Assembly (NCBI RefSeq): GCF_030268085.1
Contig: NZ_BSDE01000009.1
Coordinates: 62,001-126,000, forward strand
Origin: Geothrix limicola
GTDB taxonomy: Bacteria; Acidobacteriota; Holophagae; Holophagales; Holophagaceae
Direction: 5' to 3'
Length of the DNA: 64,000 bases
Both the position numbers and the translations under genes were made by a program. Positions 2,596-17,644 of the stretch are shown here, in pieces. The first letter of the stretch is position 1. Each line of letters begins with the position of its first letter. The notes below the pieces were generated by a model. The model ran no database searches. It was given only the letters and a program-made list of their open reading frames with translations, and was not told where the DNA came from.

Positions 2596-3099
2596 ATGCG
2601 CATCCTCGACCTCTCTCCCGATCAACGCCCCCGCGAACGCCTGCTGGCCGGCCACGGCGAAAGCCTGGCCGACGCCGAACTCCTCGCCCTGCTCTGGGGC
2701 ACGGGCCGCCAGGGCCAGAGCGCCGTGGAACTCGCGCAGGCCGTGCTCGGCCGCACCGGGGGCATCGCGGGCCTTCTGGGCCTGGGGTTCCACGACTGGC
2801 TGGACCAGCCGGGGCTCGGCCCCGCCAAGGCCGGCCAGCTGTGGGCCGCCCTGGAACTGACCCGTCGTTCCCAACGCACCGCCGAACGTCCCCGCATCAC
2901 CAGCCCCAAGGCCGCCGGCGCCTACCTGCTTTCCCGCTGCCTGGGCTGGGCCGAGGAACGTTTCGGACTGCTCGCGCTGAACGCCAAGGGCGATCTGCTG
3001 GCCGAGCGCATCCTCAGCCAGGGCACCGCCACGGCCACCCTCATCAGTCCGCGCGAATTCGTAGATTCTATGCAATCAATTTGTTCTATTTTTCTTTAA
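2596..3099 (+). pseudogene. radC: radC, 5' portion interrupted by genomic island
   Basis: Residues 1-155 match RadC/UPF0758: the N-terminal helical part with LADAELLALLWGTG, the helix-hairpin-helix around GLGPAKAGQLWAALEL, then the start of the JAMM-fold domain RFGLLALNAKGDLL...GTATATLISPREF. In intact RadC this is followed by F-(K/R)-EAL and the HxHP metal motif. Here the native sequence ends at the GAATTC at 3055-3060. A 12-residue island-derived tail (VDSMQSICSIFL) then leads to a stop at 3097-3099. The matching 3' part resumes at 17645. The truncated product keeps the HhH part but no metal-binding residues. Confidence 0.9.
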
Positions 3100-3194
3100 T
3101 CATTGTTTTTTAAGGTTTTAGTAGTCTTAAAAGAAACCAACGCGTTTAAATTGACTTTGTCGCATTTCAAAGCAAGGGTACGACCCACCCCGGC
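3100..3194. other. AT-rich left end of the island, no gene
   Basis: About 95 bases of T-rich sequence, including GTTTTTTAAGG, between the island-derived stop in radC and the folded repeat. I see no gene. It may hold recombinase binding sites. Confidence 0.4.
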
Positions 3195-3436
3195 AGAATC
3201 TCGATGGATGCCGGCCTGCAACGGCTGCTGGATTTCCTATGGAAAGCCCGGCCCCTCCCATGGATTGCGGGGCCCCACCCCCCCAATCCACGGGTCCCTC
3301 CAGCCTTTCCACAGGAAACGGCTGCAAGGCAGCCGCCCTTCGGGTCCACAACCATTGCCCTGCGGGTGGAAAGCCCTGAGGGGCTTTCCACAGGCCTTGG
3401 ATTCCGCTTCGCGGAATCCACATCCATCGAGATTCT
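3195..3436. repeat. Folded element bounded by a perfect 16-bp inverted repeat
   Basis: AGAATCTCGATGGATG (3195-3210) is repeated exactly inverted at 3421-3436. Between them lie several further stems: GGATTG/CAATCC (about 3262-3289), GGCTGC/GCAGCC (3320-3334), GGAAAGCCC/GGGGCTTTCC (about 3368-3389), and GGATTCCG/CGGAATCC (3399-3419). CTTTCCACAGG occurs twice, and GGAAAGCCC occurs at the start and again in the middle. The GC content is higher than in the rest of the island. The layout resembles a non-autonomous MITE-like element or a structured RNA or single-stranded DNA. No reverse transcriptase lies nearby, which argues against a retron. Confidence 0.65.
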
Positions 3437-3487
3437 TCATCATCAGCGGATATTGATAGCTCGCCTCTCGCCTTTGTCTCCTCCCCT

Positions 3488-3509
3488 GAGGCTCACAAAA
3501 CTGAGCCTC
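3488..3509. other. 8-bp hairpin at the 3' end of the 3493-3909 gene
   Basis: Arms GAGGCTCA (3488-3495) and TGAGCCTC (3502-3509) with the loop CAAAAC. It spans the stop codon of the minus-strand gene, so it may act in transcript ending or stability. No T-tract follows on either strand. Confidence 0.45.
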
Positions 3510-3909
3510 GAGTGCATTCATCCTGTGGGTGGTCGTCGCCGCAGGTCTCGCAAATCTGCTCAGATCGCAGCTCCGCCTGACCAATCAGCTCGTCGGATTC
3601 AGGGGTTCCACCGTCCACATAGAACCTCAGGCCTCCGTATTTGGATTTGACCTGGGCGGCCACCAGAACGAACTCCTCCCCTGCTTCGAGCTGTCGGAGG
3701 CAGATGGGCTCCAGCCTCCTACACAGGTCTCGAATGAGCTGGGTCCACCCAGGGCCGCATTCGAAGAACATGCCGTTCCGGAAGAGACACGGGAATTCCC
3801 AGATCAGTGATTCCATAGTTTCGACCTTCATGAATGACCTCTGATAGGAGATAGGATGCGCAGCTGCGTGTTCGGTGGGAGAGCTCCTGGCTGCTTGGAG
3901 CTCATCCAT
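3493..3909 (-). CDS. Hypothetical protein of phage/island type
   Basis: A protein of up to 138 residues. The ATG at 3831 (MKVETMESL...) is an alternative start that would give about 112 residues and leave a longer leader. The core reads FRNGMFFECGPGWTQLIRDLCRRLEP, VAAQVKSKYGGLRFYVDGG and ICETCGDDHP. A GPGW/LI..LC block, a VK.K(Y/F)G.LRFY block and a CxxC near the C-terminus recur in small uncharacterised proteins of phages and islands. The CETCGDDH segment could bind a metal. It is divergent from the restriction-controller gene at 3983, with the C-box between them, so both may answer to that regulator. The function is unknown. Confidence 0.55.
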   Translation of the reverse strand: MDELQAARSSPTEHAAAHPISYQRSFMKVETMESLIWEFPCLFRNGMFFECGPGWTQLIRDLCRRLEPICLRQLEAGEEFVLVAAQVKSKYGGLRFYVDGGTPESDELIGQAELRSEQICETCGDDHPQDECTRGSVL

Positions 3910-3931
3910 TTGGGTTTCGGGGAAAGCGAAC

Positions 3932-3960
3932 TTGACTTTAAGTCTATAGATCTAAAGTCA
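3932..3960 (+). promoter_or_regulatory. C-box operator upstream of controller gene
   Basis: TGACTTTA (3933-3940) and TAAAGTCA (3953-3960) form an inverted repeat 22 bp before the controller ATG. Internally it reads as two half operators, GACTTTAAGTC, then TATA, then GATCTAAAGTC. This is the two-site GACT-N3-AGTC arrangement bound by dimers of restriction-modification C proteins for autoregulation. It supports identifying the next gene as a C protein rather than a generic XRE regulator. Confidence 0.7.
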
Positions 3961-3982
3961 TTGCGCCTTCAGCCTCGGGCAG

Positions 3983-4219
3983 ATGAGCCGAGCCCGATCC
4001 GCCCGAGAAGCCTTTGCCGAGAACCTGCGCCAGGCTCGTCTGGACAAGGGTTGGTCTCAAATGGTGCTGGCGGAGGCGGCGGGATTACATTTCACTTACG
4101 TGAGTTCAGTCGAAGGTGCGAAAAGGAATGTGTCCATCGATGCCATGGAGCGCCTTGCAAAGGCTGTGGGGGTGCCCCTTTCAGACCTCCTCCTTCCGGT
4201 AACTGAGAAGCGTAGGTAG
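3983..4219 (+). CDS. XRE-family controller (C) protein of a restriction-modification system
   Basis: The 78-residue product is about the usual C-protein size. It is one helix-turn-helix domain: FAENLRQARLDKGWSQMVLAEAAGL, the recognition helix around HFTYVSSVEGAKRNVS, then DAMERLAKAVGVPLSDLL. The G.SQ..LA...GLH.TY.S..E...RN.S pattern is that of C proteins, which time expression of restriction enzymes by binding C-boxes. A near-palindromic C-box lies just upstream. No intact methyltransferase or endonuclease follows: the next minus-strand gene is unrelated as far as I can tell, and the segment at 4600-4952 is degenerate. It may be an orphan regulator left from a lost system, or may control neighbouring island genes. 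Confidence 0.75.
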   Translation: MSRARSAREAFAENLRQARLDKGWSQMVLAEAAGLHFTYVSSVEGAKRNVSIDAMERLAKAVGVPLSDLLLPVTEKRR

Positions 4220-4230
4220 TCCGGGCGCGC

Positions 4231-4569
4231 TTAAGCTCCTGGCGTGGGATGACGGGGGTCAATGCAGGCATTCGTGTGTAAAAGCCAGCCCTGGTTGAGG
4301 TGGGCATGGAGGTCAGCCATCCAGGTGGAATCGGCGGCTGCGTTAGGTCCTACCCAGCCACCCCCAGCGGCAAGTGTTCCGAAAATGTAGGCAGCTCCCG
4401 AGGATGCAACCCATTCTCGGAAATGGGAGACGTGGTGGGGGGGTCTGACCGGATGGAGATAGACATCCCCGCACTTATGGATCCAGAGGAGGTGAGGGGC
4501 GCTAGAGTCGTCGCGGGCTGCGACTAGGGCTTTCAGATCCTCGATGGTGGCTTGGTTGGGGAATCGCAC
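4231..4569 (-). CDS. Hypothetical protein, 112 residues
   Basis: An uninterrupted minus-strand frame between the controller gene and a C-box half site, convergent with the controller. The product is rich in Trp and His (LLWIHKCGDVYLHPVRPPHHVSHFREWVASSGAAY) and has glycine runs (TLAAGGGWVG). There is no signal peptide or membrane segment. I do not recognise the family. The even amino-acid use and the position between two regulatory sites favour a real gene, but chance cannot be excluded. Confidence 0.4.
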   Translation of the reverse strand: MRFPNQATIEDLKALVAARDDSSAPHLLWIHKCGDVYLHPVRPPHHVSHFREWVASSGAAYIFGTLAAGGGWVGPNAAADSTWMADLHAHLNQGWLLHTNACIDPRHPTPGA

Positions 4570-4586
4570 GGCCTCTCCGTTGCTTT

Positions 4587-4596
4587 ACTTATAGTC
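4587..4596. promoter_or_regulatory. Isolated C-box half site
   Basis: ACTTATAGTC matches 10 of 11 positions of the classical C-protein half operator (GACTTATAGTC). It sits between the minus-strand gene ending upstream at 4569 and the degenerate segment that follows, so it could serve either. Together with the operator at 3932-3960 it suggests the controller regulates, or once regulated, more than its own gene. Confidence 0.5.
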
Positions 4597-4599
4597 TAA

Positions 4600-4952
4600 A
4601 TGAACGATTGCTCCTCGAGATTCTATGCGGCGCCATGTCAAGCTGCTCCTAGTTCCGCTCTGCCCACCGCCGGCAGGCCAATCCAAGGGGAAGGGGGCGG
4701 CAAAGCCCGCGCTGAAGAAACGCACTGCATCCTCGATTCTCTGGAAGGGGGTCTATCTAGAGAGCGCGGCATACGAAGGCGATATTCAAAGCGCTCGAAC
4801 TGAATCCGATTCTGTCCGATTTCGGGGTGGTTCAGATCTCAAATGCGGACTGGGCGCAGTACCGGAAGAGCTACCGTAACTTTCCGGACTTGGCGTCCCT
4901 ATCTCAGCGGGCACTCACCTACCCGCCGAAGAACGAGGGTCCGTTAACTTGA
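4600..4952 (+). pseudogene. Degenerate gene remnant behind a C-box
   Basis: No frame runs through this segment, but the frame open from 4761 to the TGA at 4950-4952 reads like real protein: AIFKALELNPILSDFGVVQI, then SNADWAQYRKSYRNFPDLAS, then LSQRALTYPPKNEGPLT. Upstream the other two frames carry basic, low-complexity fragments. The remnant lies directly downstream of a C-box half site, where the endonuclease gene of a C-controlled restriction system would be expected. That identity is only a guess; the peptide itself is not recognised. The following 4953-5063 contains no gene. Confidence 0.4.
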
Positions 4953-5063
4953 CCACTTGGTCATAGACAGTTGGTTACACTCATGACACATTCGCGCTGT
5001 CACACGATTGGTTAGGGTGTAATTCGACCTGAGAAGTCGCCAGAACATAGGGGGCTAGAAGAG

Positions 5064-5918
5064 ATGATTTCAGGACTTGAGATCCCTTCGACCTGGCTAG
5101 TTAAGAGTTTGGGAGGGATAGCGAAGAAACTAGTCCTGTCCCTACTTGGGAATCCTTCCGAATGGGTAGCGAAAAAGATCTTCTTACCTACCTATGTAAA
5201 ATCCCACCGACTTTGGTATCGAAGGAACTGCTTGGGAAGCCACTGGGAGAGCTGCAAAGGGTTGTTTGAATATTCGTTATTTTTCCCATTGTCTATGGAC
5301 CGAGAAAGCGAACGCATCCCCAAAATTGAAGTGCGGGCGCTTGACAAGGACATCCAGCACCTTGAGCTTCTGCTTGAGGTGGAATCCCAATTAAATCGTT
5401 ATCAAGAATCGATCTCTCTGACCAATGTGACTAAGAAGTCCCTCATCAGGAACATGACCAACATTCCGATCCTAGATTTCCTTTATGTCAATCCGGACAA
5501 GGGAATACTCCTATTTACATGGGACACTTATAAGTTGTCAGTAAAGAAACTTGTCCAGGAAGATAGCAACGAATTCTTGCCATTTACTGTAACGTTCAAC
5601 GATCTAACCCATTTCTCATTGTTGAATTCGGATTGGGTACATCGTTGGGGCATGTGGTGGAACCTGGATGTCATCAAATTCACAAAGGAAGATATTCGTA
5701 TGAGATGGCGTCGAACGATCGATCCATTTGGTCTCTATTCCGAGAGACGCGGGCTCATACACCGAGTGGTGCACGTCCTTCTTCTGCGGCCCTTCGCTAG
5801 GGTGATGTCTCTTGAATTGGCAGTTTCCGGTCAATTCTGGATGGCGATTTGGTTTCGTGGCTTCCAGCTCGACGAGGGCCAACATGTATTTCGACCGCAA
5901 TTGGAAAAGACGTCATAA
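5064..5918 (+). CDS. Hypothetical island protein, 284 residues
   Basis: A complete frame with GGGGGCTAGAAGAG shortly before the ATG. AT-rich codon use matches the island. The N-terminus has an amphipathic, partly hydrophobic stretch (STWLVKSLGGIAKKLVLSLLG) that could touch membrane. The middle is acidic and helical, and the C-terminal 100 residues are rich in Trp and Arg (WVHRWGMWWNLDVIKF, MRWRRTIDPFGLY). I recognise no domain or catalytic motif. It is convergent with cap3 and separated from it by a hairpin, so it is a separate unit from CBASS. Its place among defence genes makes a defence or membrane-effector role conceivable but unproven. Confidence 0.55.
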   Translation: MISGLEIPSTWLVKSLGGIAKKLVLSLLGNPSEWVAKKIFLPTYVKSHRLWYRRNCLGSHWESCKGLFEYSLFFPLSMDRESERIPKIEVRALDKDIQHLELLLEVESQLNRYQESISLTNVTKKSLIRNMTNIPILDFLYVNPDKGILLFTWDTYKLSVKKLVQEDSNEFLPFTVTFNDLTHFSLLNSDWVHRWGMWWNLDVIKFTKEDIRMRWRRTIDPFGLYSERRGLIHRVVHVLLLRPFARVMSLELAVSGQFWMAIWFRGFQLDEGQHVFRPQLEKTS

Positions 5919-6121
5919 AAATATTAAAGCCACTTAGCTCGTGTCCGCCCGTTACCCAAAAATGACTCGACGCTTTTTTGGGGTAATTCACTCCGCTGAA
6001 GGGCGGAGTCAATCGGGGTGATTCTTGAGAAGGGCCCAAAAAACCAAATCTATAAACCCACTCGCATTGCAGCAAAGCCTCATTTCTGGCAATTAATTAA
6101 TTTTATTGAAGTAAATTTTTA
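5919..6121. other. Intergenic segment with 7-bp hairpin
   Basis: Between two convergent genes. ACTCCGC (5990-5996) and GCGGAGT (6003-6009) form a stem that may end both transcripts. A T-run (5973-5979, CTTTTTTG) and AT-rich sequence follow toward cap3. No gene is seen. Confidence 0.45.
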
Positions 6122-6625
6122 TTATGTAATTAAATAAGAATCATGCTGTTGCCGGGTTACCGGCGTCAACTCGACTAATTTATCTCCATCTTCCATGCCA
6201 ACGAAAATACCAGATGGGAAAGGCGATGTTCCAAGAATGACCACAAGGAATGCCCCGATGTCCTTTTTGGATTTTTTGAACACAGACCTCGAGCTAGCTC
6301 TATCCAACCCGGAGGGGTGAGGTGTGGGTTCGGGATGCGAGTGCCAATCGCCGATGAAATGGAGGCCATTCTCGTACTCCTCAAGAATTTCCGCCTGAGC
6401 AGCAGTTTTGTTCTGCCTAAACCCAAATTTGGATCGCCTATCAGCCGCCTTTGGTGAGGTCGCCTTCATTACCATTGCATTGCCATTACAAAATCGGGCA
6501 AAGAGCTGGCCCCCTGCCTCAGGATCATTCGATACCTGCTGAAATGCAGTCAATGTATGCAGTGCTTCTGGTGTGAAATGCACTTGATGGACCCTGTCTG
6601 GTAGCCAGTAACTAAGCATGGCCAC
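6122..6625 (-). CDS. cap3: CBASS Cap3, JAMM-family isopeptidase
   Basis: The 167-residue protein has the JAMM/MPN+ metalloprotease signature: Glu36 in PEAGGQLF, then DWHSHP with His95 and His97, Ser105 and Asp108 (H-x-H-x10-D), which bind catalytic zinc. In type II CBASS, Cap3 cleaves the bond that Cap2 forms between the CD-NTase C-terminus and target proteins, lowering the primed state. The gene is last in the capV-cdn-cap2-cap3 order and overlaps the end of cap2 by 14 bp, so translation is likely coupled. All metal-binding residues are present, so it should be active. Confidence 0.92.
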   Translation of the reverse strand: MAMLSYWLPDRVHQVHFTPEALHTLTAFQQVSNDPEAGGQLFARFCNGNAMVMKATSPKAADRRSKFGFRQNKTAAQAEILEEYENGLHFIGDWHSHPEPTPHPSGLDRASSRSVFKKSKKDIGAFLVVILGTSPFPSGIFVGMEDGDKLVELTPVTRQQHDSYLIT

Positions 6626-8405
6626 CTACCTCTGGGCGTGGCCACGGTGTTTCACAGTAGTACTGCCCCACGGGGGTATCTCCGTGTAACTCAATCCATT
6701 CCTGAGTCAGTTCACCGCCAAGTTGTCTGGCACGTTCAATGTCACCTACCCACGATCTCCAGCATGTAGCGTCCTCTTCCCGCAAGATCGTATCCAAAGC
6801 AATTCTTCCGATCAGAGCCTGCGTCTGACTTAGATCAACAGATCCATACGGCGCATGAATAGCCCCACAAACAATCCGAACGCCGTTCGAACCATCAGGC
6901 CAATCGAAGGTATGGAATCGGCGTTGGCCCGAATGGTTCAGCATGTCTTTGAACCGGGCAGAGCCAGTAGGTACCAAGACTCCATGCCCAGCGAGTGCGT
7001 GTGCCTCCAACCAACCGTATAGAACGGGAGGAAATTCTCCAGCCGCATGCAGTGCCTGAAATCGATCAAGAGCTAATTCAGAGGCCCATTCCGCAATGCA
7101 GCAAATAATCAAATCAGCTTGTCTTAATGAGTCGAGCTCCGTCGTTTGAAGATCTTCAAAGTTCTTCGGTATACCTTTGACCGTTAGATGAGGGAGGTTT
7201 TCCTGAATTACCTTCGCCAATCGGTCGGCCTTATTTTGGCCGATCGCACGTGCCCCAAGCGAATGGCGCGAGATATTTGCAGACTCGAGTGTTTCACCAT
7301 CAATAAGAGTGAGGGTGCCAACGCCGGCTCTTCCTAGTAACTCCGCAACACCTGAGCCAAGCGATCCGACTCCAATCAGAATGACATGTTTCCCCATCAA
7401 CACACCTTGTGTAGGGTCGAGGCTTCGTCCATGGATCCATGCATGATCAAGTCGATCGACCTGAATACGCTTCAATGGTGCTCTACCTGAGAGTATTGAG
7501 AAGCGAAAGACATCATCAGAAATACTCCCTGATCGAAAGCCCGCTAGGGTAATGCGGCCATTCTTCTCGAATTTTAATTGTTCTGGAGGTCTTAGAACAG
7601 CTCCTGCAAGGAGGTGCACGACAGGACCATTTGTTTTGAAGAGAAGAGATAGCCGCTTCTGTCGTTCTGATATCAAATTATCGAGGATGTCAAGCTCAGT
7701 ACTACTTGCGTATTTTTTGATAAACCTCTCCAGCTGCTGCCCTGAATCTGGAAAATCCCATGGCTTCGGAAAGTCCTTCAGCTCGATGAACGCGGCATTG
7801 GTTTCGAATCGACTTGGCGCTACGCCCCTTGAGTTCAGGGGAATTCGGTAGCGTAATTGCTCATCATCATCATAGAAATACCGATCCCCTCCCTCAATCG
7901 AAGTGTATAAGATCTTTCGGCTTCCTTTTTTAAGGTCGACCAAAGAATAAGCTCTCTGAAGTGGCTTGACATCACGTGTCCAATAAATCGGCCACTCTTG
8001 GTCAAATTCTGATTCAATGTCGCCACTTTGATATTTTCGTATCAACCTTGATGCACTTGTCATCACGGCCTTAACGAGGTGAAGTGGAGAACTTGCTGAG
8101 AAGAATTGATCAGGCTCAAAAAGGCATAACACCCCAGAATGTTCGACATGGGGACACCGTTCCCTGAGTTCCCTGTCTGTGATTTGGACCCGAGGCAGAC
8201 TAAATGGAAACGTGCCCTCAAACAGCAAGGAGCATGCTGGGAGGTTTCGAAGTTGTGGGAATTTCCATCCAGCCCGAAATACAGGGCTAACCGATTGAAG
8301 CTCAGGCGGCTTGAGCCTAGTAGCTGTTGGAATGGATTCCGATATCCATTGCTCAACCTTGCTGATCGCTTCCTCGAACAAGGCTGTATGCAGTCTTTGG
8401 TCCAT
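6612..8405 (-). CDS. cap2: CBASS Cap2, fused E2-E1 conjugating enzyme
   Basis: This 597-residue protein carries an E2-like domain (about 1-150) with candidate catalytic Cys94 in HVEHSGVLCLF. A linker follows, then a ThiF/E1 domain (about 335-580) with the nucleotide loop VILIGVGSLGSG (345-352) and the acidic TLIDGE. Cys548 (DATCWRSW) is the probable E1 cysteine. Cap2 adenylates the C-terminus of the CD-NTase and passes it through the two cysteines to a target, which primes the cyclase for phage sensing. The length and domain order are normal for the family. It begins 13 bp after the CD-NTase stop and overlaps cap3. Confidence 0.93.
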   Translation of the reverse strand: MDQRLHTALFEEAISKVEQWISESIPTATRLKPPELQSVSPVFRAGWKFPQLRNLPACSLLFEGTFPFSLPRVQITDRELRERCPHVEHSGVLCLFEPDQFFSASSPLHLVKAVMTSASRLIRKYQSGDIESEFDQEWPIYWTRDVKPLQRAYSLVDLKKGSRKILYTSIEGGDRYFYDDDEQLRYRIPLNSRGVAPSRFETNAAFIELKDFPKPWDFPDSGQQLERFIKKYASSTELDILDNLISERQKRLSLLFKTNGPVVHLLAGAVLRPPEQLKFEKNGRITLAGFRSGSISDDVFRFSILSGRAPLKRIQVDRLDHAWIHGRSLDPTQGVLMGKHVILIGVGSLGSGVAELLGRAGVGTLTLIDGETLESANISRHSLGARAIGQNKADRLAKVIQENLPHLTVKGIPKNFEDLQTTELDSLRQADLIICCIAEWASELALDRFQALHAAGEFPPVLYGWLEAHALAGHGVLVPTGSARFKDMLNHSGQRRFHTFDWPDGSNGVRIVCGAIHAPYGSVDLSQTQALIGRIALDTILREEDATCWRSWVGDIERARQLGGELTQEWIELHGDTPVGQYYCETPWPRPEVGGHA

Positions 8406-8418
8406 TGATCAAGGAACC

Positions 8419-9441
8419 TTAGGCGTAGTCTGAATTCCCGCCCTTTATTACGACCCCTGGAGTTCCTGATGTCTCAAAGGCGGAGCTCTTTTTCCCGCTG
8501 TCTGATGGATCTGGTTGCTCGTTGAAGAAGTCCGTATTGAAAATCGCACTCCAGGCCTTCATGGCCTGTTCAAAGCTGCAATCCGATATTTCGAGCTGAT
8601 CCAGATCCTTTTCCCTTTCAGAGAGGCAGTCTTTCAGGAATGTCGTCTTCGGATCGGGAATCTTCTTGGTAATGTTTTCACTCAATATGGGGTGTTTAAC
8701 AACCGTGTCTATCTCCAATCGCCGAAGAATCCTTCTCATTGTCACTCTGAGGGACTCGTCATCTCGTCCTGCTGAGGGATAGTAGTTCTCCTGCACTAAT
8801 TTTGAAATTGCAAAACCAGAAGCAGACTTCCCCACCCAAGATGAACGACTCACAGAAAATTTCTTCAACAGACGCACGATTCTCCGCAACTGTTCATCAT
8901 CATCGGACGGGCTCTGTTTAGATACGACATCATTAAACCATGCGGTCACACCTCGGGCATCAGAGACCTTCCAGTCCGTACTTGCGAGTTCGGCGACCTC
9001 TCCCGAACCAGAAGATCCCTCGCTCAAGCGATACACAGGGACATCAACGTGATATCCCTCTTCGTAATAAACACGGACACAATTTGGTTTCACTTCGGGA
9101 GGTGTCTTAAAGGATCTTCCATTCGTGAGCGCTTCACAGACCATTTTTCGAGCATCGAGGGCAGTTTTATCCGCCCCCTTCTCGCCAACTAAATCCGATT
9201 TTTTGAAATAGACTCCGTCATCGATATCGATTTGATCTTCAGGTGTTTGGACCATGGTTCGCATCATGTACGATCCTTGTGACGCGAATCCCTTAGGATC
9301 GGGGTTCTTTTTCTTTTGGAGTCCAGAAGTAAGCGCGTCGCGATTTGTATCCCTACGCTGCTGCATCTTCTTGCGTTGATCAGTTGGTAGATCTACCTCT
9401 TCATCATGAAATTTCTTCATCTGCTTCGATGTATCGATCAT
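8419..9441 (-). CDS. cdnA: CBASS CD-NTase (cGAS/DncV-like nucleotidyltransferase)
   Basis: 340 residues. The nucleotidyltransferase core has the GS motif at 56-57 (QGSYMMRT), the metal-binding pair Asp72 and Asp74 in QIDIDDGVYF, and the third Asp133 in YHVDVPVYRL. These residues are complete, so an active cyclic (oligo)nucleotide synthase is expected. DIDDGVYF is characteristic of the DncV-like clade A, whose usual product, 3'3'-cGAMP, activates CapV phospholipases; the exact product here is inferred. The flexible tail ending GGNSDYA is the likely substrate of Cap2. It starts 10 bp after capV and leads into cap2 by 13 bp, in one operon. The symbol reflects the apparent clade, not an alignment. 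Confidence 0.93.
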   Translation of the reverse strand: MIDTSKQMKKFHDEEVDLPTDQRKKMQQRRDTNRDALTSGLQKKKNPDPKGFASQGSYMMRTMVQTPEDQIDIDDGVYFKKSDLVGEKGADKTALDARKMVCEALTNGRSFKTPPEVKPNCVRVYYEEGYHVDVPVYRLSEGSSGSGEVAELASTDWKVSDARGVTAWFNDVVSKQSPSDDDEQLRRIVRLLKKFSVSRSSWVGKSASGFAISKLVQENYYPSAGRDDESLRVTMRRILRRLEIDTVVKHPILSENITKKIPDPKTTFLKDCLSEREKDLDQLEISDCSFEQAMKAWSAIFNTDFFNEQPDPSDSGKKSSAFETSGTPGVVIKGGNSDYA

Positions 9442-9451
9442 GTTTGTCTCC

Positions 9452-10543
9452 TCAACTGACTGGCTGAATGGTTTCCATAAACAGACGATTCAGAGATTGA
9501 ATGCTCCCTTCTTTCGGATCCATGCACAAACTACGAAGTTCGGTTGCGTGATTGCGGCCAAGATCTTCCAAGGCATTGGTCCCATTCATTGATGTTTCGT
9601 CAAGTGCTAGATATGGCTGGACAGATAAAGGAACTTCAAAGGTTGGGAATCGAGCAACCATTATGTTCGGTAACCATTTGGATATCTTACCGACTATCTT
9701 ATCGTAGGCCGAGGCCTGCGCATCGATCCCCAAAGAGGCCGCTCTCCCTCCGAACTGCCACTCGGAAAATCCCCAATCAAGATCTGCTTCCCCGACAGGC
9801 CCCCCGTTAATACTTGGACAAGTACCTATGGAATAGATCTCTATGGGCCTACTGGTGGAATCGCCGCGTATCTCCAGGGCGTCCACCAGGCCAACCAATA
9901 CCGGATTATTCGCCCAGAGTCCTCCATCTACGTAAAGCTGAGCCGGACCATTTCCAAGCGTCGGCGTAACTGAAGCGAGCGATCGGTAAATTGGAGCCGC
10001 AGAGGATGCGAGGCAAGCATCGACTAATGTCATCCTCTCGTCTCTCCGATCCAACCCTTGATGGTGAGCTGATTTGAAAACACGTGGATGATGGTGACCC
10101 AGTTCAACGGCGGGGATGCAGATTCCAATTCGGCGATCGGCGAACACATCGCCTAACGTTGTCGTTCCAAACACCTCACTGAGGGCTAATCGCAGTGCCT
10201 CGGCACCAGTCCTGTTGAGCGATTTTCTCTTCCTGACATGCCAGAGCAGGGAGAGAAGGGAACTCGGTAAGGGCTCTGGAAATATCGATGGACCCCATTT
10301 TTTATACAACTCGCGAACTCTAGATAACTTACATCCTGTGGCCAAGGCCGCAGCCAGGATCGCCCCGGTACTAGTGCCAACGATCAGATCAAATGATGCC
10401 CCGATGTCTAACTTGGCACACTGACGAGCACTTTCGCAGTAGGTGGCGAAGTGGTCTAAATAGGAGGCTGTGTACAGCCCTCGCATTCCCCCACCGTCAA
10501 TGGTGAGAACTCGTATAGGTTTGGAGAATTGGTCAACCGTCAA
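9452..10543 (-). CDS. capV: CBASS effector CapV, patatin-like phospholipase
   Basis: The 363-residue patatin domain has the oxyanion-hole motif TIDGGGMRGL (15-23), the nucleophile elbow GTSTG with Ser58, and the catalytic Asp206 in YVDGGLWANNP, so the Ser-Asp dyad is intact. In CBASS, the cyclic dinucleotide made by the CD-NTase activates CapV, which degrades membrane phospholipids and kills the infected cell. It is the first gene of the operon and reads away from the AlbA_2 gene; the 293 bp between them must hold both promoters. Confidence 0.93.
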   Translation of the reverse strand: MTVDQFSKPIRVLTIDGGGMRGLYTASYLDHFATYCESARQCAKLDIGASFDLIVGTSTGAILAAALATGCKLSRVRELYKKWGPSIFPEPLPSSLLSLLWHVRKRKSLNRTGAEALRLALSEVFGTTTLGDVFADRRIGICIPAVELGHHHPRVFKSAHHQGLDRRDERMTLVDACLASSAAPIYRSLASVTPTLGNGPAQLYVDGGLWANNPVLVGLVDALEIRGDSTSRPIEIYSIGTCPSINGGPVGEADLDWGFSEWQFGGRAASLGIDAQASAYDKIVGKISKWLPNIMVARFPTFEVPLSVQPYLALDETSMNGTNALEDLGRNHATELRSLCMDPKEGSIQSLNRLFMETIQPVS

Positions 10544-10836
10544 TGAAGTGCCTATGAGTGGAGAGCTAAATCGTACCTCACATGATGGATTCTTACAAAA
10601 ATTTTGGTTAAGGAAATGACGCTGATCAACAGAATGAGTCTACCTCTCTTCTCTCCATCCACAATGCCCGAGTGAACAAAGCCAGACCTTGCCAACTAGC
10701 CACTTGCTCCTTCTCGCTCAGTCTCGATTTCTGAATTTTTCTCGGTGAGGTATCAGTTCTTCGAACATGAGTTTCAATTCTGGAATATATTTAATCTCCA
10801 TTCAAAATCTAGCCACTCGGCAATACAGGAAGATCT
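10544..10836. promoter_or_regulatory. Divergent promoter region between CBASS and the AlbA_2 gene
   Basis: About 290 bases of AT-rich sequence without a gene, from which capV (left) and the AlbA_2 gene (right) diverge. The stretch GGAATATATTTAATC (about 10782-10796) is a plausible -10 area for the rightward gene. I see no clear operator palindrome. Confidence 0.45.
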
Positions 10837-12255
10837 ATGCTCCCAGAAGATGAAAGGCTTAATCAGGCTCGGCGCGTAGCCATTCAGCATTCGGAAGGGT
10901 TCGGTATTGAACACAAGTCTTGGTTGGATCTCAGCAACCCGGATGACCAAGTTAAATTAATCCGAGCCATTTTAGCGCTTCGAAATAATGATGGCGGTTG
11001 GCTCGCGATTGGTGTCGAGAATGGCACGGGAATGACAGCGAAAAACCCACCTAGCAATCTACGTGTGTCCTACGACGCCGATGCTATCAACAAGTTGATA
11101 GTTGAATTCAGCAGTGATCCATTTGGGGTGGAAGTTTGCTACCCCGATGTTGATGGCGTCGAAGTGGCCGTTCTTCGAATTCCCGGAGGAGTAAAAAATC
11201 CTGCTGTCACCAAGAAATCCATTGGTGTGACCAAGCTACTAGAGGGCGACACGATTTATTGTCGATCAATGCGTGGGGGACAGGTGAGTTCCGTCAAAGC
11301 GAACCACCGAGATTTGGGGGAGATCTTGGAAAGGTGCATGCGTAACCGGGAGCTTGACATCGGGACATTCGTGCGCCGCCATTGGGAAGACTTGACCCGA
11401 GAGGTATCGAGTCTTCAAAGCCCACCCGAGCGACGATTAGACGAATTTGTAGGAACATGTCTTTCAAAGTTTGGACAAAGGCTAGTAGATCATAATTTAA
11501 AAAGAATCCCCATGCCTGGACAACTCGCGGTTGGTGTAGCGTGGGATGGCCGCCTTCCTGATACAAACTCTACAGAACACTATTTTACAAGGATGATAAT
11601 GGCCCACCCCCAAAAGGGAGGTTGGCCTCCATGGATGGATCCAAGAGACTTCCCAGGATCTCATTGCAAGCGCGACGTTAGAGATGGCGCCTGGGAGGGT
11701 CTGATTGCGATTCCAGAATCCCATGCTCAAGGGATTGTCTTTAGCGCCCTGGACTTCGCAGTGTGGAACTTCTCGGTGGGACTGTTCCATTCTGGAAGCT
11801 ACGTGGATGACCATCCTGCGCTCGGCATCCAACAAATGGTCTCACGAGGAGAGACATGGGTAATGGGGGGGCCACCTCCCTGGTACAGGAGAGCATTGGA
11901 TCGAAGGAATATCGTTCGTGATGTGGCTAACCGACTATTCACAGCCCAAAGCCTTGTGGCTGGACTCTTCAAAGGACAGGACGCACCACTCCCAGAAAAT
12001 TTATTCTTCTACTTCAGGTTCGATAGCTTGAAGGGGCGGCTTCTCGCGGATTATGAAGGCGGTGGATTTTCTAGGCCCGCTAACAAGGCAATGGATGAGT
12101 CAATCGTTTCGTACACCCAATTGAAGATGGACTCGGACCGGAGCGTGATTGCCGAACGCACTCGAAGTGTCCTTCGGCCCCTCTTCTCAGCTTTCGGCGG
12201 AGAAGACTTGCCCCAGCAAAGAGTTGATAATTGGCTCGCCGGGTTTTGGGTATAG
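10837..12255 (+). CDS. AlbA_2 (Schlafen-like) domain protein
   Basis: 472 residues. The first 170 match the AlbA_2/Schlafen-type putative DNA-binding fold: FGIEHKSW with Glu25 and Lys27, then IRAILALRNNDGGWLAIGVENGTG, and later AVLRIPGG and IYCRSMRGGQV. AlbA_2 proteins bind nucleic acid, and Schlafen relatives include RNases; Glu25 lies where such enzymes have an acidic residue, but activity cannot be claimed. Residues 200-472 form an unrecognised domain rich in Trp and Pro (GGWPPWMDPRDFPG, MGGPPPWYRRA). It diverges from the CBASS operon and converges on the recombinase operon with only 35 bp between them. It may be an independent defence or regulatory gene, or a CBASS accessory. Confidence 0.7.
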   Translation: MLPEDERLNQARRVAIQHSEGFGIEHKSWLDLSNPDDQVKLIRAILALRNNDGGWLAIGVENGTGMTAKNPPSNLRVSYDADAINKLIVEFSSDPFGVEVCYPDVDGVEVAVLRIPGGVKNPAVTKKSIGVTKLLEGDTIYCRSMRGGQVSSVKANHRDLGEILERCMRNRELDIGTFVRRHWEDLTREVSSLQSPPERRLDEFVGTCLSKFGQRLVDHNLKRIPMPGQLAVGVAWDGRLPDTNSTEHYFTRMIMAHPQKGGWPPWMDPRDFPGSHCKRDVRDGAWEGLIAIPESHAQGIVFSALDFAVWNFSVGLFHSGSYVDDHPALGIQQMVSRGETWVMGGPPPWYRRALDRRNIVRDVANRLFTAQSLVAGLFKGQDAPLPENLFFYFRFDSLKGRLLADYEGGGFSRPANKAMDESIVSYTQLKMDSDRSVIAERTRSVLRPLFSAFGGEDLPQQRVDNWLAGFWV

Positions 12256-12290
12256 TTTCTTGCTCTGCTGTATTCCTCGGACCGTAGCCA

Positions 12291-12743
12291 TCACCGACGA
12301 TTGCGTGAAAGGGGTGGGAGAGGGCGGTCTAGTTCCTCTGGTTCAAGCCCTAATCGGATTGCATTGAATTCGTACCTCTTCCACTTGGCATCGTAGGCGG
12401 AGAGGGTGTCCTTCAATGCCCTCAGTTCTTCTTCAAGTAGATCGATACGTTGGAGGAATGCCTCAGCCCCCGATTTGGCAGCTCTCTCCGGGCGGGTAAA
12501 AGGCGAATTTTTTGCCTTCAAGGCAGCCTTGGTCTTCCAGTACCTAGCCTTGATTTCGGGTCGAGCTTCTAGAGTTCCCCTTGAAAAGCCTACCGACTTC
12601 GCAAGTTCATCCCAAGTGAGATGCCCTTTCTTATTGCCTACCTCCCAATTCTCCAGGATCTGAAACACTAACTCACGATCTTTTTCGCGGAATCGAGGTC
12701 TAGCCCCTGTCTTACGACCCTTCACCTGTTTCTTGCTGATCAA
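12291..12743 (-). CDS. ginD: Small HTH protein of the recombinase operon (GinD-like)
   Basis: 150 residues, overlapping the large recombinase gene by 4 bp. A basic N-terminus (KKQVKGRKTGARPRFREKDRE) precedes a helix-turn-helix-like segment (LTWDELAKSVGFSRGTLEARPEIKARY) and a coiled-coil region (EAFLQRIDLLEEELRALKDTLSAYDAKWKRYEF). In GInt islands the fourth gene of the operon encodes a small putative DNA-binding protein reported as needed, with the three recombinases, for recombination. The assignment rests on position, size and this layout, not on alignment. Confidence 0.7.
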   Translation of the reverse strand: MISKKQVKGRKTGARPRFREKDRELVFQILENWEVGNKKGHLTWDELAKSVGFSRGTLEARPEIKARYWKTKAALKAKNSPFTRPERAAKSGAEAFLQRIDLLEEELRALKDTLSAYDAKWKRYEFNAIRLGLEPEELDRPLPPLSRNRR

Positions 12744-14746
12744 AGTCCCTCCCTTTCAGACATATCAATGCCATCAGGAATCACTCGTATCTTCGCTTTT
12801 GAACCAGTGACCAGCGCATCCTCGATGTGTTGTAAGGCCTTGCTCGTATGCACCACGATCTCTTTGAAATGAAGAATGTTCTGATTTCGCTCTGCAATAT
12901 CCCGAGGAATCCGGCGTGCCTCTAGGTGATCGAGAATCGAGGAAATCGTTTTCAAGGCCTCGTCTCTTGCCTTGATGAGTTCCTCCTTAGTTGAAGGATT
13001 CATCGGATCTACAAGGTGGTGGCGACATCCTCGAAGACAAGCTAGATGATGAGGGCAGGGGTTTAGCTGAAGGTCCCGTGTGCAGTACATACCCTCGGCA
13101 GTACGATGAACGATAGGCACCTGAGCTAAAAGAAATTCATTCTGTACTGTCGAATCCTTAAGCGCACGAAATGCATCAGCCTTAGGACCAATCAGCACAC
13201 CAGAGCGCATCAAACCTGTGATCCTCTCCGTGAGCTCCCAGGGAGAGGAATGCTCATAATGAGCATTCTGGTGGGGAGACTTCCGCCCATGTATGGCGGC
13301 CAACATAGCATCTGAGGCCCCCCCATCCTTAAGCGCCGTTACATGGAGATGCCTCGGCATATGCGTGCGAAGATGGGGTCTATTCCCGCCCTCGTCTAGC
13401 AGATTTAATCTTGAGCATGTCTGCCCTAACCAGGTCAGTACATCTTGGTCCCGAAGCTGACGGGGGAAAAGAAAATGCTGAATATCTCTCGTTGCTTTGT
13501 GGCGATAACCCTTTCGATGACCCCATACACAAAGGGAGTTGCTCATCGAGAGCACGGCTCTTCCGTCGCGGAAGATTGTGGGGTGAGCGATCAGCTTCTT
13601 CCTGTGGCCACTCTCGATGTCGCCAGCCGATATTGTCATTTGCCCCCGTGGGATATCGGCGGCAACCTTCACCGCAGTCACCGTTTCAATTTTCTTCTTC
13701 TCCACATCTGGTCTAAGTTTAAATTCTGTGATGATTTGGCCAAGAGAAAGACGATAGGTGCCATCACAGCGGGGGATTGTTTTCCATGGAATTCGCCCGG
13801 GATTCTCTTCGATGAATTTAGCCGAGGATCTCGCCTCTGCACACAATGTGGCGAGGGTGGTGACGGCCTTCGAAATCAGCTCTCGGCACCTCTCAGCTAC
13901 GGGGACTAGAATCCAGTTCCCACCTTTCTCCGGCCCCCCCGGCAGGCGGAGGTGTAACCCCTGATTGGCGATATCGACAAGGGGATCCATCGCTAGGGTC
14001 AACACCTCTCCTATCCTCAAGCCAGTTGCCATCTGAATATCGAAGATCGCCAGAATTACCCTGTCATACGGGTCGGTGAGCCTATCGCGCTCCCGCCCGA
14101 TTGCCTCCAGGACCGACATCGATGGCAATTTTTCCTTCCGAGCTGCAGCAGCTTCGGCAGACATGGGATCAAGGTGGGTCGATACGCTGAGTACTCTCGG
14201 AGTGTAGTGAATGGGTGCCCGAAGAAGCCTCAATTCGTTGAGCCACTCACTGAGTTGACGGAGTACGCAGCTATAACTTGATGCACTCTTCGGCTGGCGT
14301 CGGTTTATCTCATCCTCCGCCCTGACGAAGTGAGACAGATGAAGCGACGTTACTTCTTCGAGAGCGTTCTGGGCAGCTCCCCCGAGATAGGCTCCAACTA
14401 GCACCCTGCGCTGAATAGTCGCATAGGACATAGGGTTCAAAGCCTGCTGAGTCACGATCCAAGCCTTGATGATTTCTTCGACCTGTGTCATCTGTCCAGA
14501 AGGGCTGCTATTGCGAAATTTTCGAAAGGAGATCATTGGGCGCTGCTGATGTCCGCGGAAGTTATCGAGCCAAGATCGGATGTCCCAACTAGCGGAATCC
14601 CATTTCAATATTTTTACAAGTGGATGAGTCCTTGCTGCTCTGATAAGCGCCGCTACATTTTCCTTGGCATCTAGACACCCTCTAGTCACCAAGTTATTGA
14701 TGCCTGGATCAATGATCCGCCCGTGAACCGATTTACTACTTTTCAT
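12740..14746 (-). CDS. ginC: Large tyrosine recombinase (GinC-like)
   Basis: 668 residues, third in the 4-bp-overlapping operon. The catalytic domain shows Arg244 in QMATGLRIGEVL, the HxxR box at His462/Arg465 in THMPRHLHVT, His486 in AAIHGRKSPHQ and the candidate nucleophile Tyr497 in NAHYEHS. The spacing from the histidine to the tyrosine is wider than the usual nine residues. A later cluster, MYCTRDLQLNPCPHHLACLRGCRHHL (about 555-585), looks like a zinc-binding module. A long extra region between the two halves of the active site makes it bigger than XerC/D-type enzymes, as expected for this class. It cuts and joins DNA at the island ends. Confidence 0.85.
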   Translation of the reverse strand: MKSSKSVHGRIIDPGINNLVTRGCLDAKENVAALIRAARTHPLVKILKWDSASWDIRSWLDNFRGHQQRPMISFRKFRNSSPSGQMTQVEEIIKAWIVTQQALNPMSYATIQRRVLVGAYLGGAAQNALEEVTSLHLSHFVRAEDEINRRQPKSASSYSCVLRQLSEWLNELRLLRAPIHYTPRVLSVSTHLDPMSAEAAAARKEKLPSMSVLEAIGRERDRLTDPYDRVILAIFDIQMATGLRIGEVLTLAMDPLVDIANQGLHLRLPGGPEKGGNWILVPVAERCRELISKAVTTLATLCAEARSSAKFIEENPGRIPWKTIPRCDGTYRLSLGQIITEFKLRPDVEKKKIETVTAVKVAADIPRGQMTISAGDIESGHRKKLIAHPTIFRDGRAVLSMSNSLCVWGHRKGYRHKATRDIQHFLFPRQLRDQDVLTWLGQTCSRLNLLDEGGNRPHLRTHMPRHLHVTALKDGGASDAMLAAIHGRKSPHQNAHYEHSSPWELTERITGLMRSGVLIGPKADAFRALKDSTVQNEFLLAQVPIVHRTAEGMYCTRDLQLNPCPHHLACLRGCRHHLVDPMNPSTKEELIKARDEALKTISSILDHLEARRIPRDIAERNQNILHFKEIVVHTSKALQHIEDALVTGSKAKIRVIPDGIDMSEREGL

Positions 14747-16272
14747 TGGGAGTCACTCCCATCCAATTCGATCGCTTCAACGACCGCTTGAACGCCATGG
14801 ATGGCAGAGTCAAGCTGGGCCGCCAACAGCAATCCCGTTCTCCCTGTTTCAAGTAATCGACGCTTCCGATCCTGTAGTTGTTGAAGGTAGACCAGGTGGT
14901 TTCTACTCTTCAAAGCAACCAGGTACTCACACCCATAACAACTCAATGGCGGATCGAGGCGACACTGCCGTTTCGATCCACACTCCCCGATTTCTAAGAT
15001 AGCCTTGTTCGATTGCGCAAAAATAGCCCGAGCTGGCGACACTTGATCTACTAATCGCCCAGAGTACCGATCGATAATTTCTCCAAGATTTTGATCGACA
15101 AGCCGATTATACAAACTGTCCTGGTCGGACCTAATTCGGTAATAGTGCTTCGCAGAATTCAAGGATGTGTGGCCGAGTTTCCGCGCAAGGACTGTCATCG
15201 GAACACCCCTATTCGCAAGTAGGGTTCCGAAAGTGTATCTAAGCGACTGAGCGCTTACCTTTCGTCGGGTATTGGTGCGACTCGATATGACAGGAATTTC
15301 GTTGCACCAAACTCGAATCTTCATACTCAGATGGTCATAGTTCCAATGCCAGCGAAACGGGTCCTCTACTCTACTTCGAGCCTCAGCCCTGAAGATCAAC
15401 GGTCGAAAGTCTCCAACCTTGGTTTCAAATCGATTCCTGTTCTGTTGGATTAGATCTCCAATCAGTCTGGCCAATTCCGTCTCTAGCCCAATTTCGATAG
15501 GAGGGTTGCGTCTGGGGTCATCGTACCTCTGCTTCACTAAATGTACTTTCAATCTGAACCACTCATTCCCTCCGATTTTTTCCGATACAAAATCATCCTC
15601 CCGAATCATGGCAATCGATGCTGGACGTAATCCAAATGCCCCTACAAGAATCAGGACAACCTTACCTTCGAGTGGAAGTGTGGAACTCTTCCATACCCCT
15701 TTGATGAAATTCGCGAACTCAACTTCATCGAGAGGCCCCAACTGCGGGTCCATGTTCCTCACCGGCATTAGCGCAGGCCGCAAAACCTTAATCGATCGAA
15801 CCTTGTGAAGGACGTCTTCAGTGACGAGATCAGGCCGGACATCTCCAATCCATTGAAGGAACAGCTTCCAAAATGGCCAATAGCCAATGAGGCCCTTTGT
15901 TCTCACCCATCCCAAAATCCCTGAAACTTGAGGCCAATCAAAGCTCTTCCACTGCTCTACCCCCCCGGTATTCAGTTCATACCCCCGAAGAGGAGAAAGC
16001 AGGCCATTCCAGACTGATCTGATGGAGGAATCAGCTTTTGATCTAATGACATGACGCATGAATTCCTTGGTCACTTCTGCCAACTCTCCCCTTAGAGGAA
16101 ACTCGGTCCAGTCCAATCGAACGCTAATGGCATGTCGTCCACCGCGAAGAATCCAAGTGTCATTTTCGATAATCGCTTTTGCCCCACCTTTGGTTAGCAA
16201 CTCCGTTAGCTGGGCTTCGGGTCCCTCGCCATTCTGATTTGGTTTAGAGATGATGGACTTCATCGGGCTCAT
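14743..16272 (-). CDS. ginB: Tyrosine recombinase (GinB-like)
   Basis: 509 residues, second gene of the operon, with 4-bp overlaps on both sides. The core includes Arg216 in GAFGLRPASI, the second arginine Arg345 in SAQSLRYTFGTLL, His368 in ARKLGHTSLNSAKHYY, and Tyr377 as nucleophile at the normal spacing. The first residue of the HxxR box is Gln342 instead of His. A C-terminal Cys-rich segment (CGSKRQCRLDPPLSCYGCEYL) resembles a small zinc finger also seen in other multi-recombinase islands. It probably works together with the other two recombinases. Confidence 0.87.
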   Translation of the reverse strand: MSPMKSIISKPNQNGEGPEAQLTELLTKGGAKAIIENDTWILRGGRHAISVRLDWTEFPLRGELAEVTKEFMRHVIRSKADSSIRSVWNGLLSPLRGYELNTGGVEQWKSFDWPQVSGILGWVRTKGLIGYWPFWKLFLQWIGDVRPDLVTEDVLHKVRSIKVLRPALMPVRNMDPQLGPLDEVEFANFIKGVWKSSTLPLEGKVVLILVGAFGLRPASIAMIREDDFVSEKIGGNEWFRLKVHLVKQRYDDPRRNPPIEIGLETELARLIGDLIQQNRNRFETKVGDFRPLIFRAEARSRVEDPFRWHWNYDHLSMKIRVWCNEIPVISSRTNTRRKVSAQSLRYTFGTLLANRGVPMTVLARKLGHTSLNSAKHYYRIRSDQDSLYNRLVDQNLGEIIDRYSGRLVDQVSPARAIFAQSNKAILEIGECGSKRQCRLDPPLSCYGCEYLVALKSRNHLVYLQQLQDRKRRLLETGRTGLLLAAQLDSAIHGVQAVVEAIELDGSDSQ

Positions 16273-17462
16273 TCGCTCTCCACGATGGAAAGGAACTTCT
16301 TCTGCATCTCTCGACAGACCGATTGGGCCATAGCCTCGATCCGCCTGTCCGCGTACCTATTTCCGGTATCGCTCGTTTTCGACCACCCATTGAGATAGTT
16401 CAAATATCGCTTCGCATCCTCATCTCCAATCCCCCTGGCATCAAAAAAGTCCATCAAACACTCTGTGTACGTGTGCCGGAGGGTATGCGGAGTAAGTCTA
16501 CTCTCTCGAAACTCCGGGATTGCCCTCCTCAATGTTGCAAACAAAGCGTTCACGCTGTTCAATGCCATGGGCTGGCCACCTCGAGATAGAAAGAGAAAGG
16601 GGCTTTGCCAGGCCCCGGGGGAGGCGCTACGAGCTTTGAGAAACCTCCACATAACACCCGGAAGCCCGGCGTCTTCCGATATTGCCGTTCCAAAACCCTC
16701 CAGTGGGATCAATCGGCCGTTCGTTTTGACCTCCGGCTCTATCAATCTAGGATCCTCAGGGTCGTCTGGCCTTCGAACCACCTGTATGTAATTGTTTCGA
16801 GCAAGGACAAGGTCTGAGGTCCTGAGCTTGAGCGCCTCCCCACGTCGAATTCCCGTAAAGAAGAAGAGAAGCAAGAGGGCGTAGTTTCGCTCTCGCACAT
16901 CATGGGAAAATGGGTTCTCGCTTGAATCAGGTCGGATAACCTCTAGGAATCGGCTTCGTAGACCAGGGCTCAAACTGCGCCCCTGACCACCCTTCCCACG
17001 TGGTCGTAAGGCCTTCATCCGCTTCAGGAAATGGTCCCGTTTGAGGTGGTAATGCCGAGCCATTTCTCCCGTACGCCTGGAGAGCTGAACGCCGGACCAC
17101 CAATCGAGGTACCCGATAATCACTTGAAAGTCCGCTGAAGTGGTAGAGGCCAGGACTTCCCCACGATGAACGGAGTTCGTCCTGTGCCTACTTCTGAACT
17201 CCTCAAGGAGGCCGAGCGCTTCGTGCTCGTACAAAAAATTTGCGGTTCGTACCCGCTCATCCAGATCCAAGCCGAGGGCTTCGAACCAGGAGTACATCCT
17301 TGCTAAGGCTGCTGCATCCCTACGTAGAGTGCTTGCCTGGACTCGTGGCCTACGGATAAGAAGCAACCACTGATTCGAAGGGCGATGGGGCAACCCGCCG
17401 CTATCAGCCACCAGCGAATCTCTTTCTCCATCGCTATGAATGATATGCCTACATGTAAACAA
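16269..17462 (-). CDS. ginA: Tyrosine recombinase (GinA-like)
   Basis: 397 residues, first gene of the recombinase operon and closest to the right island end. The active site is visible: Arg206 in FFTGIRRGEA, a lysine at about 246 (EVKTNGR), His326 and Arg329 in LTPHTLRHTY, Trp360 in the NGWSK position, and Tyr370 in GNRYADRR. An N-terminal core-binding SAM-like domain precedes it. It ends in a 4-bp overlap with ginB. The promoter must lie in the 180 bp between its ATG and the radC 3' part, which probably also holds recombinase binding sites. Confidence 0.88.
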   Translation of the reverse strand: MFTCRHIIHSDGERDSLVADSGGLPHRPSNQWLLLIRRPRVQASTLRRDAAALARMYSWFEALGLDLDERVRTANFLYEHEALGLLEEFRSRHRTNSVHRGEVLASTTSADFQVIIGYLDWWSGVQLSRRTGEMARHYHLKRDHFLKRMKALRPRGKGGQGRSLSPGLRSRFLEVIRPDSSENPFSHDVRERNYALLLLFFFTGIRRGEALKLRTSDLVLARNNYIQVVRRPDDPEDPRLIEPEVKTNGRLIPLEGFGTAISEDAGLPGVMWRFLKARSASPGAWQSPFLFLSRGGQPMALNSVNALFATLRRAIPEFRESRLTPHTLRHTYTECLMDFFDARGIGDEDAKRYLNYLNGWSKTSDTGNRYADRRIEAMAQSVCREMQKKFLSIVESE

Positions 17463-17644
17463 TCGATGCCTCCGACCAGAAGACGATAGATGTTTGACAT
17501 TTTTTTGAACAAGTGTATTGAATTTTATGCACCAGAATGAGGCTGAGCAAGGGCGAAAAGGTGTAACACATGTCGACTGTTAAATCCTTTTTATGTATCT
17601 ATTACGGAAAACATCTAACAACTCAGGTCCATCTTAGACCTAAC
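17463..17644. other. Right island end with recombinase promoter and putative core sites
   Basis: AT-rich segment without a gene of its own. Just inside the junction, AGGTC (17621-17625) and GACCT (17637-17641 region) form an inverted repeat, a plausible recombinase core. The minus-strand sequence before ginA includes poly-A/T runs fitting a promoter. A start at 17570 fuses 25 island-derived residues in frame to the radC 3' part. Confidence 0.45.

Follow-up and report, generated by a model that had tools for sequence, protein, structure and literature searches.

In the window, the 64,000-nucleotide stretch of a Geothrix limicola contig that was analysed here, an intact open reading frame at 3983-4219 on the plus strand encodes a 78-residue protein (window C) and is preceded by a tandem operator at 3934-3959 on the same strand (left half 3934-3944, spacer TATA, right half 3949-3959). 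On the minus strand, an apparent fossil of a methylase start (3935-3961) overlaps the operator, and a divergent gene of 138 aa (3493-3909, minus strand) stands at the place occupied by the methylase in complete PvuII systems. Behind the 78-codon gene lies gene Y (112 aa; 4231-4569, minus strand), and ahead of gene Y there is a single family half-site at 4586-4596 (GACTATAAGTA on the minus strand).

Judged from its sequence, the 78-aa gene is a controller (C) protein gene of PvuII type. Window C is a small single-domain XRE/HTH protein; generic HTH families likewise match it, but its likeness to C proteins exceeds that to generic HTH proteins. Among PDB entries the best match was a Neisseria regulator (3vk0), and the best named controller matches were C.BclI (8e-10) and C.AhdI (2.5e-6); C.Esp1396I also matched (6e-5). 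A relative at 1e-10 was found in 5 of the 47 genomes of the genus, the genome of the window counted. A first scan of genome contigs with the single window protein as the query gave no match; an alignment of four of the five genus relatives was employed as the query for a scan of one genome per species, which returned 222 relatives, and the best 80 of the 222, from named genomes, were kept. Window C scored 100 bits against the profile built from these 80 relatives.

In a phylogenetic tree based on 68 alignment columns, in which many forks were unresolved, window C clustered with C genes of Verrucomicrobia belonging to PvuII-like systems that still have their enzymes (SH-aLRT 95). It was placed apart from the remaining Geothrix orphans, so it looks to have been orphaned independently of them. 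L013, L144, L151 and L152 were left out of the tree set, and L084 and L103, which duplicate L012 and L136, were omitted from both the tree and the co-variation sets. The named-controller matches, the profile score and the tree placement bear out the proposal of an earlier note on this DNA that the 78-residue XRE protein is a controller, with a resemblance to C proteins beyond that of a generic HTH protein.

The operator, GACTTTAAGTC-TATA-GATCTAAAGTC, is 26 bp long and ends 23 bp ahead of the ATG of the C gene. Nearly all of the 80 relatives have an operator resembling TACTTATAGTC-TGTA-GACTTATAGTC, and the window operator agrees with those of the relatives' loci in both position and register. 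With up to 3 mismatches allowed, the full 26-mer recurred nowhere else in the window and in none of 100 shuffles. Using a weight matrix derived from 73 family operators, we found a single match above 2 bits on either strand of the window, at 3934. The window operator scored 24 bits, compared to 38-44 bits for those of the other Holophagaceae orphans, while its left half-site is perfectly palindromic (5 of 5 pairs), unique among 93 operators. The bare half pattern GACTN3AGTC was rejected as stand-alone evidence: it is present at 16 places in the genome, and the 18 occurrences with one mismatch in the window are close to the 17.3 expected. Because the half pattern is common, the weight rests on the tandem arrangement and the register. 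The double operator that had been noticed upstream of the C gene was thereby confirmed at 3934-3959, and neither the 26-mer and matrix searches nor the search for TACTTATAGTC described below revealed C-boxes of equal quality scattered elsewhere.

Clustering of the neighbours at the relatives' loci produced two main families, one straight behind C and one divergent from C, recognisable as the PvuII-like nuclease and methylase; plasmid pPvu1 (NC_002632.1) has the same layout. Based on profiles built in this study, 55 of the 80 named-genome relatives have both enzymes, with the methylase divergent and the nuclease behind C, 2 have the methylase alone and 23 have neither. Before counting, nuclease-profile matches of 21-60 bits over C itself in L070, L071, L073, L081 and L083 were dropped, because the profile includes C-nuclease fusions. 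Six-frame profile searches detected no remnant of the methylase or the nuclease in the window, L010, L011 or L012, and no open reading frame with methylase motifs was found within 4 kb of window C. Whole-genome searches of seven Holophagaceae genomes including this one showed, at the sensitivity used, no PvuII-like nuclease (one match, E 0.65) and no PvuII-like methylase; the methylase query recovered the enzyme from 5 of 5 positive-control genomes, whereas the nuclease query was run without such a control. There are thus no linked restriction and methylase genes under C at the window and no PvuII-like nuclease plus methylase in the window or its genome, and the earlier statement that no intact restriction system is present holds for the PvuII type.

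A trace of the lost methylase appears to be preserved in the operator. Excerpts of a published study (PMC3850674) place the methylase start of PvuII across the downstream C box. At 3935-3961 on the minus strand of the window, divergent reading frame 0 reads ATG ACT TTA GAT CTA TAG ACT TAA AGT (M-T-L-D-L-stop-T-stop-S), and the methylase of pPvu1 starts with ATG ACT TTG AAT CTA CAG ACT ATG AGT. Counted by eye, the two differ at 6 of 27 bases, with two stops created by these differences; part of the likeness is due to the operator itself. Together with the organization of the relatives' loci, the fossil supports the view that the lost system was PvuII-like, which sharpens the former suggestion of a restriction-modification (RM) controller deprived of its enzymes. 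On these grounds, the window very probably carries an orphaned PvuII-type C gene.

In the surroundings of the C gene, radC is split, with its N-terminal part ending near 3057 and the JAB-domain remainder starting from near 17640, and the intervening ~14.6 kb (3058-17640) ends with three successive tyrosine recombinase genes (12740-17462, minus strand). Tn554-like elements insert in radC. The same region harbours a CBASS operon (6122-10543, minus strand) encoding a phospholipase effector, a cyclase, and E1-E2 and JAB proteins; the cyclase scored 135.7 bits with the NCBIfam cGAS model, under the cut-off of 150. The CBASS genes are flanked by a 284-aa open reading frame (5064-5918) with no match in Pfam, PHROGs, NCBIfam or PADLOC and by a gene for a Schlafen AlbA_2 protein (10837-12255). 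Outside the island, a ThiF-like gene (PRK06153 type) followed by a DUF6527 gene (90-1198) is possibly a further accessory pair. The C gene and its operator are located in this mobile defence island, where they may act on an unrelated neighbour gene.

A frame at 4761-4949 had been regarded in the earlier note as decayed, and a comparison of its peptide with restriction enzymes had been suggested. We found it open, with no family match, no relative in 77 family genomes except itself and no match to the PvuII-like enzyme profiles; an identity as restriction-enzyme debris was rejected. For the divergent gene at 3493-3909, relatives are present in 7 of 76 other family genomes, and the tandem operator was absent at the 6 of these 7 loci that were scanned.

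The second half site noticed previously was confirmed and could be extended to TACTTATAGTC at 4586-4596, a perfect family half-site that attains the maximum score (20.0 of 20.0 bits) and lies at a distance of 652 bp from the operator. It corresponds to the ancestral half-site, not to the changed one in the window's own operator. In the 4.23-Mb genome TACTTATAGTC is present in one copy, in the forward direction only; the reversed pattern, used as a control, likewise gave one copy. A genome could plausibly contain about one copy by chance, and we estimated the probability of such a copy lying within 1 kb of the C operator at about 1 in 2000. The site, which contains TATAAG on the minus strand, precedes the GTG of gene Y by 16 bases, and GGAGAGG is found immediately ahead of the GTG; a promoter scan at the site recognised no sigma-70-like promoter and no -35 box. 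When 32 loci without PvuII enzymes and 59 loci with them were compared, an extra 20-bit half-site within 6 kb was present only in the window and L068, both without PvuII enzymes, and two weaker ones (14.7 and 14.9 bits) occurred at loci with enzymes. In L068, represented by one sequence only, the single half-site (4449-4459) is located at the start of the frame of another, divergent gene, an arrangement that would result from collapse of a tandem operator between the GACT repeats.

The few known relatives of gene Y come from Escherichia phage ESSI2_ev015 (8e-6) and Acidovorax plasmid pEP1 (4e-4) and indicate that it is a real gene. Scans of viral contigs showed no relatives of gene Y, Pfam and PHROGs gave no match for gene Y or the gene at 3493-3909, and the AlphaFold2 model of gene Y had a mean pLDDT of 41. 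That C now drives island genes, as had been raised in the earlier note, is possible and gains some support from the second site ahead of 4231-4569; a specific action of C on gene Y can be proposed tentatively, at somewhat less than even odds.

Window C differs from its relatives at E27, R37, R45, E47 and N54, positions that are 91-100% conserved among 58 enzyme-linked members. According to excerpts of the structural reports, the base-reading residues of C.Esp1396I are R35, T36 and R46 (PMC4041747), and a TG motif outside the C-boxes is contacted (PMC3758141); by elimination, R35 would be the residue that contacts this motif. In a manual alignment, residue 37 of window C corresponds to R35 of C.Esp1396I. 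Position 37 is Phe in window C, and T38 and R48, which align with T36 and R46, are unchanged.

To compare residue 37 with the operator, we called operators without the 4 spacer positions; 93 of 100 passed, and 7 scoring less than 10 bits were dropped. Among the 93 operator-bearing relatives, 91 have Arg37, all with G at operator position 13. The other two have Phe37 and no G13: the window, with the spacer TATA, and L086, a Chlamydiae contig, with TTTA. The pairing gave a Fisher p of 2.3e-4 with relatedness ignored. In a further set of non-duplicate loci, from which rows below 10 bits were omitted, Arg was accompanied by G at 19 of 19. Three members with Pro or Ala at position 37 lack an operator of this type and were kept out of the counts. 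The two Phe37 members belong to different parts of the tree. Since Phe37 goes with a missing G13 in 2 of 2 cases and Arg37 with G13 in 91 of 91, protein and operator seem to have changed together, in two events, rather than merely rotted. Resting on these two events, the pairing speaks for binding maintained with a shifted preference. This co-variation of protein and operator is a new finding.

Compared to six relatives, window C showed a pN of 0.27-0.31 and a saturated pS of 0.72-0.85. The low pN relative to pS suggests that most of the divergence of window C arose under constraint, but much of this divergence may be older than the enzyme loss. The terminal branch of window C is long (0.58); this branch and the loss of five conserved residues are as expected under relaxed constraint, and a recent loss of function is possible. 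Weighing both sides, we consider that window C is probably still functional, likely with a shifted specificity.

The locus resembles known systems in part. C.PvuII of pPvu1 (NC_002632.1) shares the protein family and the register of the tandem operator with the window; in the pPvu1 sequence and in excerpts of PMC3850674, its methylase start likewise lies over the operator, with the C start just downstream. The window differs from it in the absence of nuclease and methylase, in Phe for Arg37, in the spacer TATA for TGTA and in the additional single half-site before another gene. C.Esp1396I, which has three operator sites according to excerpts of PMC3758141, also combines a tandem operator at C with a single-dimer operator placed apart from it, at another gene; that gene is the methylase, whereas in the window it is an unrelated gene, and the protein similarity is weaker (6e-5). 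C.BclI and C.AhdI are XRE-type controllers like window C (8e-10 and 2.5e-6, respectively) but are part of complete systems.

Starting from the observed origin of the C gene, the enzyme loss, the intact reading frame and operator, the co-variation and the uniqueness of the second site, we infer binding, autoregulation and repression of gene Y as follows. A PvuII-type RM system would have lost both enzymes, leaving the C gene and its operator; the methylase start within the operator died, and the joint change from Arg37 to Phe and from G to A in the TG-TA spacer would have followed. C.PvuII first activates and then represses its own gene. The dimer of window C most likely still binds the tandem operator and would regulate its own gene in the same manner, by activation and then repression. 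The single half-site at 4586-4596, with its -10-like TATAAG, is probably bound by window C as well, and window C would there repress gene Y (4231-4569), by analogy with Esp1396I, where the methylase gene is repressed from a single C site. Taken as a whole, this explanation is the one we favour, with a moderate degree of confidence.

The strongest competitor, though rather unlikely, is that the locus is a decaying relic of a recent RM loss, in which C and its operator no longer work and the second site is a chance leftover. The five lost conserved residues, the long branch, the weaker operator and the dead methylase start would all suit decay. However, the reading frame is intact, the change at R37 has a counterpart in the operator, the palindrome of the left half-site is perfect, T38 and R48 (corresponding to the remaining two base readers) are retained, and pN is far below pS (0.27-0.31 against 0.72-0.85), though much of that divergence may predate the loss. 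Much less probable is that the lone C serves as an incompatibility guard, switching on the nuclease of an incoming PvuII-type system too early and aborting its establishment. In the excerpts of two reports, cells pre-expressing C refuse transformation with intact PvuII and related C proteins are mutually exclusive (PMC12707154, PMC3874152), and six other Holophagaceae orphan loci retain Arg37 and the family operator. Without Arg37 and the operator G, however, window C should read PvuII-type operators poorly, so that such a role suits the other orphans better than the window. A generic XRE repressor or island antitoxin unrelated to restriction, for which the matches to generic HTH families and the CBASS and recombinase genes of the island could be cited, is largely excluded, and very improbable indeed, in view of the placement in the PvuII-type C clade, the in-register tandem operator and the methylase-start fossil.

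Similar lone C genes occur elsewhere, some of them with another gene at the methylase position. Holophagaceae contain seven C loci without PvuII enzymes, in six genomes. At four of the seven (L011, L134, L135 and L136), a gene of ~140 aa, gene X, is divergent from C at the methylase position; it accompanies lone C genes in three genomes, each from a different genus. Across 93 genomes of the class, strong matches to gene X were confined to those four loci; two weak matches lay elsewhere, with no operator in the 3.3 kb around each of them. Where scanned, gene X had no match in Pfam, PHROGs (one gene X was scanned in both) or PDB, and PDB profile searches with gene X and gene Y yielded nothing usable. 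Its C-terminal part appears ribbon-helix-helix-like by eye, without support from the libraries, a faint hint that gene X may encode a DNA-binding partner. The lone C gene of L012, in Geothrix, lies beside three consecutive genes, of which the two that were scanned match phage integrase, and near genes of a 6A-MBL anti-phage system (1533-7051 and 12074-15584).

Another divergent gene, gene Z, is common to five Burkholderiales loci. The pN/pS values at these loci, with unsaturated pS, were 0.08-0.28 for C and 0.10-0.22 for Z; these low values indicate purifying selection on both genes. At 3 of the 5 gene Z loci, an open reading frame with methylase motifs, type I hsdM-like, is located 1.3-3 kb away. 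In the tree set as a whole, 29 of 40 loci without PvuII enzymes have no methylase-motif frame within 4 kb and 11 have one, although that of L135 looks like a false motif; some loci labelled lone (e.g., L139-L142) therefore belong to other restriction systems. A literature search, which covered neither subscription papers nor preprints and therefore shows little, returned no report of lone C genes.

From these loci we put forward, as a conjecture with somewhat less than even odds, that C/operator units outlive their enzymes and are captured as regulators, via a new gene at the methylase position or via a single half-site, and that their specificity shifts by the paired loss of Arg35 and the operator G that this residue reads; the window would then be a captured, shifted unit acting on gene Y. 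How C proteins alter their sequence preference can be tested directly with the pairing of residue 37 and position 13. The established role of C proteins is the timing of restriction enzymes. If lone C units are indeed under selection, the restriction timer would be a portable regulatory module, and lone C genes could decide which restriction systems a cell accepts.
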